From NCBI RefSeq assembly GCF_000238775.2, contig NZ_AFEJ02000001.1:310001-374000 (forward strand): a stretch of 64,000 bases of DNA, given 5' to 3'. The translations under genes and the position numbers were made by a program. Shown here in pieces: positions 17,438 to 23,791 of the stretch. Positions within the stretch are counted from its first letter, which is position 1; the number at the start of each line of letters is the position of its first letter. Source of the stretch: Acaryochloris sp. CCMEE 5410. Lineage in GTDB: Bacteria > Cyanobacteriota > Cyanobacteriia > Thermosynechococcales > Thermosynechococcaceae. The notes beneath the pieces are model-generated. The model was not told where the DNA came from. It worked only from the letters and a program-made list of their open reading frames with translations, and searched no databases.

Positions 17438-18493
17438 TTACAACGCATTTCCTCTAGGTAGCACCTCTTCAGGGAAGACAAAATTCTCGTGAATTTGATC
17501 CTGAGGAGCCATCCATGCTCTGAGTCCCTCATTGAGTAGGATGTTTTTGGTATAGAACGTTTCATATTCTGGATCTTCTGCTGCACGGATCTCTTGGCTG
17601 ACAAAATCATAGGCTCGCATGTTGAGGGCAATGCCGACTAGCCCAATCGCCGAAGCCCACAACCCAGTCACGGGAACAAATAACATAAAGAAGTGCAGCC
17701 AGCGCTTGTTCGAAAAGGCTATTCCAAAGATCTGAGACCAGAAGCGATTGGCTGTCACCATCGAATAAGTTTCTTCTGACTGGGTGGGGCTAAAACCACT
17801 AAAGGTGTTGGCATCTTTAGTGTCCTCAAATAAGGTGTTTTCTACCGTTGCTCCATGGATGGCACAGAGCAGTGCCCCACCTAAGATACCCGCCACCCCC
17901 ATCATATGAAAGGGATTGAGGGTCAGGTTATGAAACCCTTGAACAAATAGTAAAAAGCGGAAAATACTGGCTACCCCCCAACTGGGAGCAAAGAACCAAC
18001 TGGATTGCCCTAAGGGATACATTAAAAAAACAGAAACAAAAACAGCGATGGGACCACTAAAAGCAACTGCGTTATAAGGTCGCACATTTACTAGCCGAGC
18101 AATTTCAAATTGACGCAGCATAAAACCAATCAGACCAAAGGCACCATGTAAAGTCACAAAGTTCCACATGCCCCCAAGTTGGCACCATCGAGTAAAATCT
18201 CCTCTAGCCTCTGGCCCCCACAGCAAGAGTAAGGAATGTCCCATACTATCCGCAGGGGTAGAGACGGCTGCAGTTAGAAAATTGCACCCTTCGAGATAAG
18301 AACTCGCGAGGCCGTGGGTATACCACGAGGTGACAAAAGTCGTTCCCGTAAACCATCCGCCAATGGACAAGAACGCACAGGGAAAGAGTAATAACCCTGA
18401 CCAGCCTATAAAGACAAAGCGATCGCGTTTCAACCAATCGTCGAGGACATCGAACCAGCCTCGCTCTCGGACGCGTCCAAGTGCAATTGTCAT
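17438..18493 (-). CDS. psbD: photosystem II D2 protein
   Basis: 351-residue D2 of the photosystem II reaction centre in the thylakoid membrane. I start it at the ATG at 18493, preceded by TGGAGG seven bases away and giving the usual MTIALGR start. Cofactor residues are kept: His117 and Gln129 ([13 protein letters not shown]), Tyr160 (MYPLGQ), His189, His197 (NPFH), His214, Trp253 and His268 in canonical numbering. Two positions differ from D2 proteins I know: Trp191 of HNWTLNPFH is Leu here, and Phe173 of APSFGVA is Trp. psbC, which usually overlaps psbD, is absent, so this is a stand-alone copy with its own terminator. One residue is missing after MTIALGR relative to usual D2. Confidence 0.97.
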
Positions 18494-18782
18494 AGAATAA
18501 CCTCCAGACAAGTGTTAGTAATTCTGATTTGTAGATGTAGTTTTTAATTCAGTTCCTAACTGCATGAACAGCCCACAAGGAATCACCACGGATGAAGGTC
18601 CGGTGTTGTGCTGTGTCTCTCAGTGTGGCTGTAGGCGAATTCAGAACATTCCACCCATCTCTTACGGATTGCTGCTTCAGCAATCAGATAGGTTAACGGA
18701 ATGATCTGCCAGTGAAGCTATATCTGACAAAAAACAGAAGGCTGAGTACTTAAAATGCGTCCCTAAAATTTCGCAAAAAGAC

Positions 18783-19001
18783 TTAGCTAGTAAAACTCAA
18801 TCTTTTAGGGCTACGCAAATGGTGCTTTGACAACGTCACAGGCCGATAAAATATTCGTTGTTTAGGGTGCTTTTTGGATGCCTGATAAGTGTCTGATAGC
18901 TGAGAAGGGACTTCTATCCAGCAATGAGGACAAAACCAGCTCACTCTCTCAAAGCGGATTTGTCGTAGCAATGGATTCGAGCAGCAAGGACAGTCAGTCA
19001 T
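18783..19001 (-). CDS. small zinc-ribbon-like protein
   Basis: 72-residue basic protein with two CxxC pairs, CPCC near the N-terminus and CPHC 20 residues later, in the pattern of a small cyanobacterial family that reads CPCCSNPLLRQIRFERVSWF then CPHCW. Probably one zinc site. Function not known. Its stop is about 290 bases upstream of psbD, on the same strand. Confidence 0.6.
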   Translation of the reverse strand: MTDCPCCSNPLLRQIRFERVSWFCPHCWIEVPSQLSDTYQASKKHPKQRIFYRPVTLSKHHLRSPKRLSFTS

Positions 19002-19213
19002 AAGCTTTATAGAAACGATTGCCGGGGAAAATGATTCTGTTCGGTATTAACCTTAGTTTGCAATCATGAGGAAGTTGTGAGGATAGACTTAAAACTATCC
19101 AGTTGAGCCGAAAGGGAAGCGTCACTATCCCTCTCTTTGCAAAGGTTTTATACCTTATGGAAGATGGGCCAATAGGTATGTAATAATCATCGCAATCTGA
19201 AACCTTCAAGTCT

Positions 19214-21328
19214 ATGCGTCGCTGGCTAAAAAAACTATACGACCACCCATTTTTGCCTGCGGTAGCTTCTCTGGGAAATACCCCACAAGATCGGCAGGTT
19301 GCTGAGCAATGGTCAACCTGGATGAAACAGCAGTGGTATGACCATGGCCTCAAGGAGCTGAAGCAGCAGCGCAATTTAATGACTGAGGTACGACAGGCGT
19401 TGAAGAAGCAGTTGGGTGAGGAACATGTGGTCGTAGAGACCATGAATTTTTCACGGGATGAGTGGATTCAAGTTAATTTGTCGATTAATGATCGAGTCGC
19501 AGCCCGTAATGAACAGCAAGGGCTGATAGAGCAACCCGATGCCATTGTTGATCGCGCCAAGATGCTCCTGGATAGCCGAGACTGGTCAGAGGTTGCCGCT
19601 GGGTTAGCAGTGGTCACTGGACGTCGCTGTACAGAGCTATTGCAAACGGCTGAATTTATTTATTCCTCTCCCTATAGTGTCTGGTTTACTGGGGCCTTGA
19701 AGCGTCGGAAAGAAGCGATGGAGCTGCGCTTTGAAATTCCCACCCTTGCCCCAGCCAAACATGCGATCGCAGCCCTAGATCTGCTCAGACAACAAGTCAA
19801 TACCGTGGGATTGGATCTGGAAACCATTAATCGGAAATACAGTCCTCCCGTGGCTAAAGCATGCGATCTCTATTTTGCTGAACTAATTCCCCAGCGAGCT
19901 GGGCGTGGCAATCTCTATACTCATTTATTTCGGACGATCTATGCTCGGATCGCTACCCATTGGTATGCGCCACCCACCGTGGCGGATGTTGAATATATGG
20001 CAGCGATCCAAGGCCATTTTTTAATCCAGAATGAGCAAGATACGGCACTCCGCCGGTCCCTTGCCTCCACTCGACACTACAATGACTACAAAATTGGGGA
20101 CGGCCAGGGAAATATAGATGGTCGCCAAGGGATACGACTACGGGATCCAGGGGTGCAGGTCCTGCAAGTGTTCCAAAGTGCTGCCCCTCAACTTGAACCA
20201 GAAACCCTCACTGAATGGGAAGAACAACCAATGATCCGACCTGTTAAACGCCAACGCCAACGCCCCAAGCGGGAAATTTCAACCCTAAGACTTTACCAAG
20301 ATGAACGGGATCGTTGGATCCAGGTACTCGACCAGTTTGAACCTCGTGGCACCCAACAAGAAAAGATGTCCGTTCTGCTGGAATGGCTGGAGCAATCCTT
20401 AAAAGACGGTACCTCAAACAAGGAGTCTGCGGATGATTTAGAGCAGCTAGCTTACCTATTTATTGAGCCACTACAGCCCCTTAGAGACCCAGAAGCCATC
20501 CGAACCCTATGTCAGCAGGAAATTGCTGATTTGGAACAGGATTACTATCCAGAAGATTACTTGCCGCTGTATAAACAGGCGATCGCAGAAGCCATTCGCT
20601 CGGGACAGCTGCCTTTAATAGACGGAAAAACAGCAGAACGAACCAGCTATACCAAAGAAGGTGTCAACTACGAGCAACGCACCCATTATGCTCTGTTATT
20701 TCTAGATGATTTGGATCATGAACTGGAAGCTTCTCAATCGGATCCGTCGCAGCGAGTTACACCTATTAAATCGGACATTACACCTAAAATTGATTCAACG
20801 CTTGATCAAACAACCCCACCATCCGCAACCGATCAAAAGTTAGATACCCTGACCACGGTGCTGACCCAGCTTATCCAAGTGATGCAGGGGGAGCAGGCCG
20901 CTCCACACCCCACTCCAGAGCTGGAAACTGCCCAGAATGAAAACGCCCAAAATAATGGTCATGCCCATCCGGCTGAATCTCCTGAACTTTCTACTGCAGA
21001 TCCAGACCCTTCTTCTCCTAAAAAGAGAGGAAGGCGGGCAGGGAAGACGTCTGCCGCTGCAGAGGCCAAAATCTCCCAGGCCATTAATGCAATCATGGAC
21101 TACAACAATGTTCCCACCCGGACTTTTGATGAAAAATGGATGATTAGCTCATCGATTCTCAAACGGCTCACCAAGTCCTACCAAGGCGTGATTCAGCGGG
21201 TCCTAGATGCTCGCAAAGATGAAATTCAACTTCACCATCAGGCCCATGGATTGAAAGGTCGTCATAATACTCGTCACGGTCGAGCTGGGGTCACCATTGA
21301 TCAAGTGATTCAACTGGACTTTGATTAA
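19214..21328 (+). CDS. telomere resolvase (protelomerase)-like tyrosine-recombinase-fold protein
   Basis: 704-residue protein whose first about 300 residues look like the catalytic region of telomere resolvases (ResT/TelK/TelA), enzymes that cut and rejoin replicated telomeres into covalently closed hairpins. Matching active-site elements in order: VVTGRRCTELL (Arg137/138), WFTGALKRRKE (Lys163), LYTHLFRTIYARIATHWY (His237, Arg240), GHF (His268) and RHYNDYKI (Tyr289 or Tyr292 as nucleophile). Residues 320-600 hold a basic linker and helical segments; 600-640 is Pro/Glu/Asn-rich; a basic final domain (residues 640-704: KKRGRRAGKTSAAAEAK, then SSILKRLTKSYQGV) probably binds DNA. HIP1 sites inside suggest long residence. 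Which Tyr acts, and any target site, are not known. Confidence 0.75.
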   Translation: MRRWLKKLYDHPFLPAVASLGNTPQDRQVAEQWSTWMKQQWYDHGLKELKQQRNLMTEVRQALKKQLGEEHVVVETMNFSRDEWIQVNLSINDRVAARNEQQGLIEQPDAIVDRAKMLLDSRDWSEVAAGLAVVTGRRCTELLQTAEFIYSSPYSVWFTGALKRRKEAMELRFEIPTLAPAKHAIAALDLLRQQVNTVGLDLETINRKYSPPVAKACDLYFAELIPQRAGRGNLYTHLFRTIYARIATHWYAPPTVADVEYMAAIQGHFLIQNEQDTALRRSLASTRHYNDYKIGDGQGNIDGRQGIRLRDPGVQVLQVFQSAAPQLEPETLTEWEEQPMIRPVKRQRQRPKREISTLRLYQDERDRWIQVLDQFEPRGTQQEKMSVLLEWLEQSLKDGTSNKESADDLEQLAYLFIEPLQPLRDPEAIRTLCQQEIADLEQDYYPEDYLPLYKQAIAEAIRSGQLPLIDGKTAERTSYTKEGVNYEQRTHYALLFLDDLDHELEASQSDPSQRVTPIKSDITPKIDSTLDQTTPPSATDQKLDTLTTVLTQLIQVMQGEQAAPHPTPELETAQNENAQNNGHAHPAESPELSTADPDPSSPKKRGRRAGKTSAAAEAKISQAINAIMDYNNVPTRTFDEKWMISSSILKRLTKSYQGVIQRVLDARKDEIQLHHQAHGLKGRHNTRHGRAGVTIDQVIQLDFD

Positions 21329-21367
21329 GTGTTTGACAATGGCAGATGGAGAAATTCTACCCTTTGT

Positions 21368-23791
21368 TCAGGAATCCATATGTTTAGCCAAGAGTTTTTT
21401 CGCCATGGGTTTGTATAGCAGGTAGAAGATGGTCTCGATATACCGGAGCATATCTTCCCTTTTTTCCTTAGAAGTGTAGTTCCAAAAACCATATATTTTA
21501 GCGAGGGAAAGTAATCGACTGGTGTGAATTTTCCAAGTGTAGGTAGTGTAGACCCGCTCTATCGCTTGTTCTGAAATTTGTTGCCAATAGTCTGGATTGG
21601 TTGAGCATTCTTTGGCAAACTCTAGCAATTTAGTCGCAATTTCTTCATTATGGGTTGGGTTGATATAAAAGCCATCAATGCCATCTCGAATGATTTCTAG
21701 TGGTCCCCCAAACCGAGTTGCAAAGGTGGGAAGCCCAGAAATCATGGCTTCTAAAACCGTTAACCCAAAGGCTTCAAAGAGGGCGGGTTGAACAAAAATA
21801 CCTTTGTGATCGGCAACCACTCGATAGATTTCCCCCGAGTCTTGCTTGGGAAAACGAACCCCTAACCACCGGATTTTGCCGTGCAGGTTGTATTGATCAA
21901 TAATTCGGTATAGTCGCTCAATTTCGTTAATTTCTTCATGATCCACAGAATCACTGGTTCTCAGCTTGCCAGCTACCAGAATGAGATTGTAGTGGTCCTG
22001 GAGTTGGGGATGTTGGCCGAAGCATTCTGCCAAACCCGTTAAATTTTTAATCCGATCCAAACGAGCCATAGAAAACAGTGGCGGTTTTTCTGGATCCTCT
22101 AAATGGCCAAAGACGTGTTCAGGGTCTTCGAGGGTAAACAATAACTCTTCCAGTCGGTCTATATCCCCTGGTGTTCTCTCCTGGTGCCGGGTGAAGGGAA
22201 AATAGACACTTTCGTTGACGCCAGGTGGGACAACATTAAATTTAGGGCTGAACAATTCGGCTCCATAAACAACATGGTAAAGATCGGGCATTGTAAAGGA
22301 ACGATAGCTTTCATACTGACCAATGGTATCGGGGCGACCCGCGATTTCTTGATAGGTACTAGTGACAATAAAATTCGCCGCATTCATGGCAATTAAATCG
22401 GCGGTAAACTGCATGGAGAAGTGATACTGCTCCTCTAAATCCTGCCAATACAGATTACTGAACAGATACTTCGACTTTTCCAGAGCATGGGCAACGTTGC
22501 ACTGGGTTACTCCTAACCGACGGGAGAGGAGAAAGGCGACTAAGTTACCGTCTGTATAGTTGCCCACGATCAAATCCGGTAAGCCCCGAAACTCCGCCAG
22601 TAGTTCCCGCTCAGCATCGATGGCATAGGTTTCTAAGTAAGGCCAAATTTCAAACCGGGAAATCCAGTTTTGGGTGTATTTGGGATTCAGCTCTCGGAAG
22701 GGAACGCGCAAAATCCATACGTTGTCGGTGGCATGAACTTTTTCTAGCCGCTGATTGCAGAGGGTTCCTTCACTATTGGGAATCAATCGAGACAAAATAA
22801 TAAGCTTTGGCTGCACTTCTAAGGTATCTAGCCCTGCGAACTGAAGATCTTCTTGCAGCTGCTTCTCTAGGCTTTTTGCTTGATCAAGGACATAAACGAC
22901 CTGCCCGCCAGTATCGGGTCTGCCCAAAACCCCTTCTTGACCAAAGTAGCCATGAATCGAAACCAGCACGATCTTAAAGATCATGGGGATGCGAGAGATA
23001 AAGGCTTCCAATACCTGATCGTCAGGAGAATCGATTAGCTCATCCAGCATTTCTAAAGTTTCTAGAACTCTGGCAGCGGTATTCCCCCAACCTGGTTCAA
23101 AACCCAGCTCTTGGAAGTTAAACCTAAATTCAGGATAGGGCTGTTCTGGGGGGAGCCCCCCCACTAAGCTAATGGCTTGCTTCACGCACTCAGATAGCTG
23201 TTCAGGGTTTTGGATCCTTTGATTAATTAGGAGTTGAGTGCCGTTATAGGAATGAAGTTTGAGGAATGAAAAGAGAGAGAAGAGCCATTGTTGAGAGCCC
23301 TCAAACATCTTGCTCGATAAGTATCGGTTGAGATATTGAACGCCTCGACCAATATTCTTTGGATCTCGGATGACGGGAGAATAGTCGTAGAAAGGACGGA
23401 AATCAATTTCGAGGATGTCGCCCTCTTGAGGATGATAGTGTCCTACAAATCGATCGCGCAGGTCCAGTAGCTCATCAATCTGGATTCGCTCATAGACTAA
23501 TTCTCGAGGATCTAAGCGATAAGCTTCTTCAGATGCGATTTTGGGACGAATAATTAGATAGAGGTTCTCATCCTCGACAAGGATTTCTTGGGTGTAGTAA
23601 ATCAGCTTCTGCAAACGGGATGAGAGTTGAAATGCAGGAGTCTTCCCATATTTCTCGCAGAAGGTGTCAAATACGCTCAGAATGTCATTGCGGAGTAAAT
23701 AGCGCTCGGATTGATTGTGGACTTCACTAGCAAACTGTCGCAAATCCGTTTTTTCATCACTATTTAAGACCGATTGAATAAACTGAGACAT
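21368..23791 (-). CDS. susA: sucrose synthase
   Basis: 807 residues, the usual length of cyanobacterial and plant sucrose synthases (GT4), which reversibly convert sucrose and a nucleoside diphosphate into fructose and NDP-glucose. Recognised parts: GYFGQEGVLGRPDTGGQVVY starting the GT-B part near residue 280, the FSMARLDRIKNLTGL segment, and the EX7E motif in FEAFGLTVLEAMISG in the C-terminal half. A GGAG lies eight bases before the ATG. It points to sucrose use or storage (linked to glycogen and, in heterocystous species, to carbon supply). Single gene, no partner next to it. Confidence 0.95.
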   Translation of the reverse strand: MSQFIQSVLNSDEKTDLRQFASEVHNQSERYLLRNDILSVFDTFCEKYGKTPAFQLSSRLQKLIYYTQEILVEDENLYLIIRPKIASEEAYRLDPRELVYERIQIDELLDLRDRFVGHYHPQEGDILEIDFRPFYDYSPVIRDPKNIGRGVQYLNRYLSSKMFEGSQQWLFSLFSFLKLHSYNGTQLLINQRIQNPEQLSECVKQAISLVGGLPPEQPYPEFRFNFQELGFEPGWGNTAARVLETLEMLDELIDSPDDQVLEAFISRIPMIFKIVLVSIHGYFGQEGVLGRPDTGGQVVYVLDQAKSLEKQLQEDLQFAGLDTLEVQPKLIILSRLIPNSEGTLCNQRLEKVHATDNVWILRVPFRELNPKYTQNWISRFEIWPYLETYAIDAERELLAEFRGLPDLIVGNYTDGNLVAFLLSRRLGVTQCNVAHALEKSKYLFSNLYWQDLEEQYHFSMQFTADLIAMNAANFIVTSTYQEIAGRPDTIGQYESYRSFTMPDLYHVVYGAELFSPKFNVVPPGVNESVYFPFTRHQERTPGDIDRLEELLFTLEDPEHVFGHLEDPEKPPLFSMARLDRIKNLTGLAECFGQHPQLQDHYNLILVAGKLRTSDSVDHEEINEIERLYRIIDQYNLHGKIRWLGVRFPKQDSGEIYRVVADHKGIFVQPALFEAFGLTVLEAMISGLPTFATRFGGPLEIIRDGIDGFYINPTHNEEIATKLLEFAKECSTNPDYWQQISEQAIERVYTTYTWKIHTSRLLSLAKIYGFWNYTSKEKREDMLRYIETIFYLLYKPMAKKLLAKHMDS

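Follow-up and report, generated by a model that had tools for sequence, protein, structure and literature searches.

A chromosomal gene of the telomere resolvase family with conserved predicted catalytic residues in Acaryochloris

Results

A telomere-resolvase-family gene among core genes

The window analyzed here is a 64,000-nt stretch of DNA from Acaryochloris, whose genome assembly (G000) comprises 8.09 Mb in 23 contigs. An open reading frame at 19214..21328 on the forward strand (coordinates include the stop codon) starts with ATG, contains no internal stop and encodes a protein of 704 residues assigned below to the telomere resolvase family. The gene sits on a 4.5-Mb contig amid core genes: psbD, encoding the photosystem II D2 protein (17438..18511, reverse strand), adjoins it here and also in the related genomes G001 and G004, sucrose synthase (21368..23791, reverse strand) is its other neighbor, and tmk, holB and surE lie nearby, with no phage or plasmid genes adjoining it. 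Of the 35 HIP1 sites (GCGATCGC) in the window, two fall inside the gene. The original prediction, made from the letters of the sequence, had described a protelomerase-like gene on a cyanobacterial chromosome, surrounded by core genes and HIP1 sites, with five ordered active-site motifs and a C-terminal extension of about 400 residues; the host and the setting are as described, all five motifs occur in the open reading frame in the order given, and the extension is real.

The known telomere resolvases (protelomerases) come from organisms and phages whose DNA is linear, and seal the ends of that DNA into hairpins; a literature search found no paper on such enzymes in Acaryochloris. The family profile PF16684 (ResT-TelK_cat) matched residues 108-292 (19535..20089, forward strand) across profile positions 7-181 of 181, with an E-value of 1.1e-28 and a score of 100.5 bits, the curated cut-off being 27. 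The TelA equivalog NF052462 gave 48.6 bits against a cut-off of 800 bits, so the protein is a relative of TelA and not TelA itself. A family profile built from 25 relatives matched TelA (8.7e-35), TelK (1.4e-26) and ResT (7.7e-9) in the PDB, a family match far beyond chance.

The comparison with resolvase structures that had been proposed as a check was carried out on an AlphaFold2 model (pLDDT 76.8), for which the input was an alignment of the window protein with genome-derived homologues and in which the N-terminal core and the catalytic domain are well predicted. Foldseek returned eight significant matches with this model, all of them to TelA, TelK or ResT, and VIA-align superposed model residues 2-301 on residues 127-417 of TelA with a Z score of 22.3 over 279 residues, followed by TelK (17.7) and ResT (14.6). 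The next matches were XerA (8.0) and then Cre and lambda integrase (about 6), so that no Xer/Cre-type tyrosine recombinase, at Z of 8.0 or less, rivals TelA as the best fold match. With the profile match and the predicted fold in agreement with the proposed family, we consider it nearly certain that the gene belongs to the telomere resolvase (protelomerase) family and that its predicted active site is intact.

Conservation of the predicted active site

Residues 1-107 (19214..19534, forward strand) form an N-terminal helical core domain and a linker helix, as delimited by alignment and by superposition of the model on TelA, and precede the catalytic domain. The catalytic residues of TelA are R255, K286, Y363, R366, H394 and Y405 (PMC3558466), and the six aligned positions are present in order and conserved in the Acaryochloris protein: R138 (19625..19627), K163 (19700..19702), H237 and R240 within His237-Leu-Phe-Arg240 (19922..19933), H268 (20015..20017) and the predicted nucleophile Y289 (20078..20080), all encoded on the forward strand. 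In an alignment of 34 sequences from the family, R138, R240 and Y289 never vary, and conservation is 90% or more at K163 and H268. The catalytic arginine of the GRR motif is the second one, R138, and the HLFR motif supplies the pair H237/R240, in which H237 replaces Tyr363 of TelA.

Two details left open or flagged in the original prediction were clarified by this alignment. Tyr289 and Tyr292 had both been put forward as the nucleophile, and only Y289 is invariant among the 34 sequences. The distance from His268 to the tyrosine had been judged longer than in known resolvases, which holds against TelA (21 versus 11) but not against the proteins encoded by the Chondrocystis linear plasmids, where it is also 21, and the spacing is therefore a trait of the clade and not a sign of decay.

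The linker helix offers a further point of comparison, since Tyr201 of TelA stacks on a flipped base, is required for hairpin formation and has been likened to Trp298 of Tn5 (PMC3558466). The aligned position is W84 here (19463-19465, forward strand) and Tyr or Trp in nearly the whole clade, and N88 aligns with TelA R205; the refolding residues Y201 and R205 are themselves poorly conserved between systems (PMC3558466). An aspartate four residues after H268, at the position of TelA D398 and ResT D328, is absent, with D276 falling in an insertion, and relatives on palindrome-ended replicons likewise lack it. Among the Acaryochloris orthologues the catalytic domain has a dN/dS of 0.024-0.063, with a looser linker, and is under strong purifying selection.

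Set against known enzymes, the protein resembles TelA of Agrobacterium tumefaciens (PDB 4dwp) in its predicted fold over residues 2-301, the six catalytic positions and the aromatic residue at the Tyr201 position, and differs in overall sequence (about 21% identity), in the His and Asn at the positions of Tyr363 and Arg205, in the longer His-Tyr spacing, in the added extension of about 400 residues and in a host genome that is not known as linear. It shares the catalytic domain fold and residues with TelK and TelN (phages phiKO2 and N15) and with ResT (Borrelia), although these are very distant in sequence, and ResT and TelK serve linear replicons.

A rearranged C-terminal extension

The extension contains two recognizable domains. 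A helical domain at residues 388-498 (20375..20707, forward strand) is homologous (HMM E-value 2.5e-22) to the N-terminal domain of a sister clade of cyanobacterial resolvases, the family-B PF16684 proteins (e.g., that of pGLO7428.02 in Gloeocapsa PCC 7428), which form a separate clade in the tree and carry the domain before PF16684, unlike Acaryochloris, where it follows. Within clade A, to which the Acaryochloris protein belongs, the domain occurs only in Acaryochloris, and it has therefore either been gained there or moved from one side of the catalytic domain to the other. The second of the two, at residues 600-703 (21011..21322, forward strand), is common by HMM matching to much of the family, including relatives on linear plasmids, and matches phrog_34828 (E-value 9.5e-6). 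The C-terminal half searched alone gave no confident fold, only winged-helix-like matches at Z 3-5, and the domain at 600-703 is probably DNA-binding and weakly winged-helix-like.

One selected chromosomal orthologue per Acaryochloris genome

Exactly one intact orthologue is present in each of seven Acaryochloris genomes (7/7). Its position differs by species (beside psbD in three, recA/Nif3 in one and after an AAA-ATPase gene in another), with core-gene surroundings on the Acaryochloris contigs that could be read for this comparison. The identity of the resolvase protein to its orthologues (G004 87%, G001 85%, G002 79%, G003 71%, G005 72%, G006 53%) parallels that of holB (85%, 79%, 80%, 75%, 71% and 62%, in the same order), which fits vertical descent.

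Additional copies occur in the host, intact at C1:9341, where the paralogue adjoins Tn7-like genes, and at C3:312348; the copies near the ends of C3 are broken, so that the extra copies on C3 are partly broken, in contrast to the selected chromosomal orthologue. An 11-kb segment found at three contig ends of G000 (the start of C1 and both ends of C3, inverted between the latter two) contains a resolvase paralogue, UvrD-like helicases and Tn7-like TniQ/TnsC/TnsB genes. These contig ends were considered as telomeres and rejected: the repeats adjoin transposition genes and helicases, and C1 and C3 stop at different points within them, so they look like ordinary assembly-breaking repeats. Searched for XerD-type recombinases, the chromosomal contigs C1 and C2 gave no match better than E = 1e-5, and the stronger matches all lie on plasmid contigs.

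Relatives on linear and palindrome-ended cyanobacterial replicons

In the tree, nine Acaryochloris sequences form one group (support 100/99) nested in a 17-member clade (100/99) that also holds the proteins of Chondrocystis linear plasmids 2 and 3, a group from the genomes G046, G053 and G034, and Leptolyngbya plasmid proteins. Wherever the context of a close relative is known, its gene lies on a plasmid or linear replicon. The Chondrocystis proteins (sp. NIES-4102; AP018283 and AP018284, annotated as linear) share the clade, the His-Tyr spacing and the C-terminal domain with the Acaryochloris protein and differ in being plasmid-borne and in lacking the 388-498 domain. Plasmid 3 (AP018284.1) ends in a perfect 93-nt palindrome (L081 3909-4001) with a one-base center, ...AGTATTATATC-T-GATATAATACT... 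Perfect terminal inverted repeats of 1099 bp were also seen on plasmid 5 of this strain (AP018286.1).

A comparable structure was found in G046, a 4.68-Mb genome in a single contig, which contains a perfect palindrome of 6159 bp (C1 about 2110111-2116269; L052 7111-13269) with a 1-nt center, ...TTATTATC-A-GATAATAA..., and a resolvase gene in each arm that starts about 0.3 kb from the center. Such an internal palindrome is expected if a hairpin end was read through or two ends were joined, and G046 may possibly be a linear chromosome with hairpin ends that was circularized by the assembler. The tip TATC-W-GATA is common to the palindromes of plasmid 3 and G046, and the 5.46-Mb single contig of G053 ends in ...AAAGTATTATC with the same tip motif (TATTATC), carries a resolvase gene 8.3 kb inside its end and has inverted repeats linking its two ends (C1 5438500-5458034 and 1-15000), so that it, too, is possibly a linear cyanobacterial chromosome.

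On a more distant branch, an 18.2-kb contig with a PF16684 gene (G129:C59) has perfect terminal inverted repeats of 864 bp ending in a perfect 38-bp palindrome (L063 1-38 and 18114-18151) centered on TCATGA, the six-base center of a TelA substrate (PMC3558466), and is a probable hairpin-ended linear plasmid. Contig G174:C6 (18309 bp), with terminal inverted repeats of about 264 bp and a PF16684 gene, is likely a linear plasmid as well. The palindromic or inverted-repeat ends that accompany resolvase genes in these relatives suggest that cyanobacterial members of the family act on replicons with hairpin ends. Judged by sequence, the Acaryochloris gene is descended from a clade residing on linear, apparently hairpin-ended cyanobacterial replicons.

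The label "linear" in a database record was not accepted as proof, as Leptolyngbya boryana pLBX (504,942 bp, linear) shares the gene with a 553,597-bp plasmid labeled circular in another strain. No terminal repeats were seen at the ends of pLBX, Cy782202 or pC052_H. No relative was found among viral contigs, and a search of a phage collection returned distant telomere phages only.

Search for a telomere site in the host

The original prediction held that an active enzyme should have a palindromic telomere site somewhere in the organism and that otherwise the gene might have been adopted for another purpose, DNA resolution or repair. A scan of about a quarter of the host genome, covering 1.57 Mb of non-chromosomal contigs (almost all of them, overlaps included) and 0.48 Mb of the 6.55-Mb chromosome (about 7%), turned up no palindrome resembling a telomere. 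In phage N15 the telomere site adjoins telN, whereas no palindrome of note lies beside the Acaryochloris gene (18400-19400 and 21200-21600) or elsewhere in the window, and an N15-type prophage arrangement, with a telomere palindrome next to the gene, is absent. Two variants of the TATC-W-GATA tip, TTATCWGATAA and ATATCWGATAT, occur once each in G000, neither inside a palindrome.

One perfect palindrome of 48 bp, present in five copies (L142 4215-4262, L218 14905-14952, L203 19893-19940 and L225 16676-16723 among them), of which one lies 22.5 kb upstream of the gene, was examined and set aside as part of an IS21-like element; the copies show compensating changes and are attached to istA/istB, the element being recognized by eye.

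Discussion

The presence of this enzyme on the chromosome of a genus with circular published genomes implies either a new job or linear DNA that has gone unseen. The closed nanopore genomes of Acaryochloris MBIC10699 (PMC9324425) and Moss Beach (PMC9029297) are reported to consist only of a circular chromosome and circular plasmids, their chromosomes lying outside the collections surveyed for the orthologue. Given these circular genomes and the single-copy, vertical and strongly selected inheritance of the gene, the second branch of the original prediction, use for another purpose, fits better than service to a telomere site. We therefore favor, at a probability of roughly 60%, a catalytically intact linear-plasmid telomere resolvase that became fixed on the chromosome and was probably domesticated. 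A domesticated role, as opposed to telomere service to a resident linear replicon, is in itself only slightly favored. The likeliest history is that a linear-plasmid resolvase settled on the chromosome of an Acaryochloris ancestor and was kept by selection; the more specific version, permanent domestication on a circular chromosome for general chromosome maintenance with a rearranged domain architecture, is put forward tentatively. Neither a site on which a domesticated enzyme would act nor a partner for it came to light. To our knowledge, domestication on a circular bacterial chromosome has not been described in the telomere resolvase family.

The most serious competitor is that the enzyme acts in trans on a linear hairpin-ended plasmid that is resident or regularly received, or on a linear chromosome, which assemblies have missed or circularized. 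G046, where a hairpin-type end appears as an internal perfect palindrome, illustrates that assemblies can hide such ends, and this palindrome together with the end of Chondrocystis plasmid 3 places perfect palindromic ends in the same clade; the exclusively plasmid or linear-replicon setting of those close relatives for which it is known and the paralogues of plasmid type that the host carries on C3 and at C1:9341 point the same way. Almost all non-chromosomal contigs of G000 yielded only IS- or terminator-like hairpins, however, and the solitary tip motifs outside palindromes and the two fully circular nanopore assemblies also argue against an action in trans, which we hold to be unlikely, if by no means far-fetched. 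Conversion into a recombinase that works in a Cre/Xer-like manner between inverted-repeat sites, for example in chromosome dimer resolution, is improbable. A few changes, D398A among them, make TelA Cre-like (PMC13221069), the aspartate at the D398 spacing after H268 is missing here, and the strong XerD-type matches of the host are confined to plasmid contigs; yet the same aspartate is equally missing in relatives on palindrome-ended replicons, so its absence does not single out Acaryochloris, and XerCD is reported to be present in the cyanobacteria of one earlier study (PMC3025954).

Two further readings dispense with catalysis or with function altogether. ResT and TelA share an ability to anneal single-stranded DNA (PMC7861564), which would allow a non-catalytic use in annealing or DNA binding, but conservation of the protein is highest in the catalytic domain and the catalytic residues are all kept, making this very improbable. 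That the gene is a functionless remnant of a prophage or plasmid that once integrated might be suggested by its varying position among species and by the decaying plasmid paralogues of G000; the intact gene in all seven genomes, a catalytic dN/dS well below 0.1 and the lack of adjoining phage or plasmid genes leave it scarcely credible, and the selection evidence largely refutes it.

For the favored reading of a domesticated resolvase, we infer that the Acaryochloris enzyme cleaves DNA, and the TelA reaction suggests how it might do so. Bound as a dimer to an inverted-repeat site, the enzyme would use Tyr289 to attack the DNA backbone, yielding a phosphotyrosine; W84 and the linker helix would then help the broken strands to refold before they are sealed again, normally as hairpins. 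After its move onto the circular Acaryochloris chromosome, the gene would have been retained for host DNA maintenance, where its job may be the processing of inverted-repeat junctions, dimers, end structures or incoming linear replicons.

A selected chromosomal copy across a genus of circular-genome bacteria would mean that hairpin-forming chemistry has been reused or that linear DNA has been overlooked in Acaryochloris, and as strains of this far-red-light cyanobacterium are culturable, the question is readily testable. The relatives, moreover, offer candidate new cyanobacterial telomere sequences ready for use as substrates in biochemistry, and such plasmid proteins already carry the NCBI label "protelomerase family protein."
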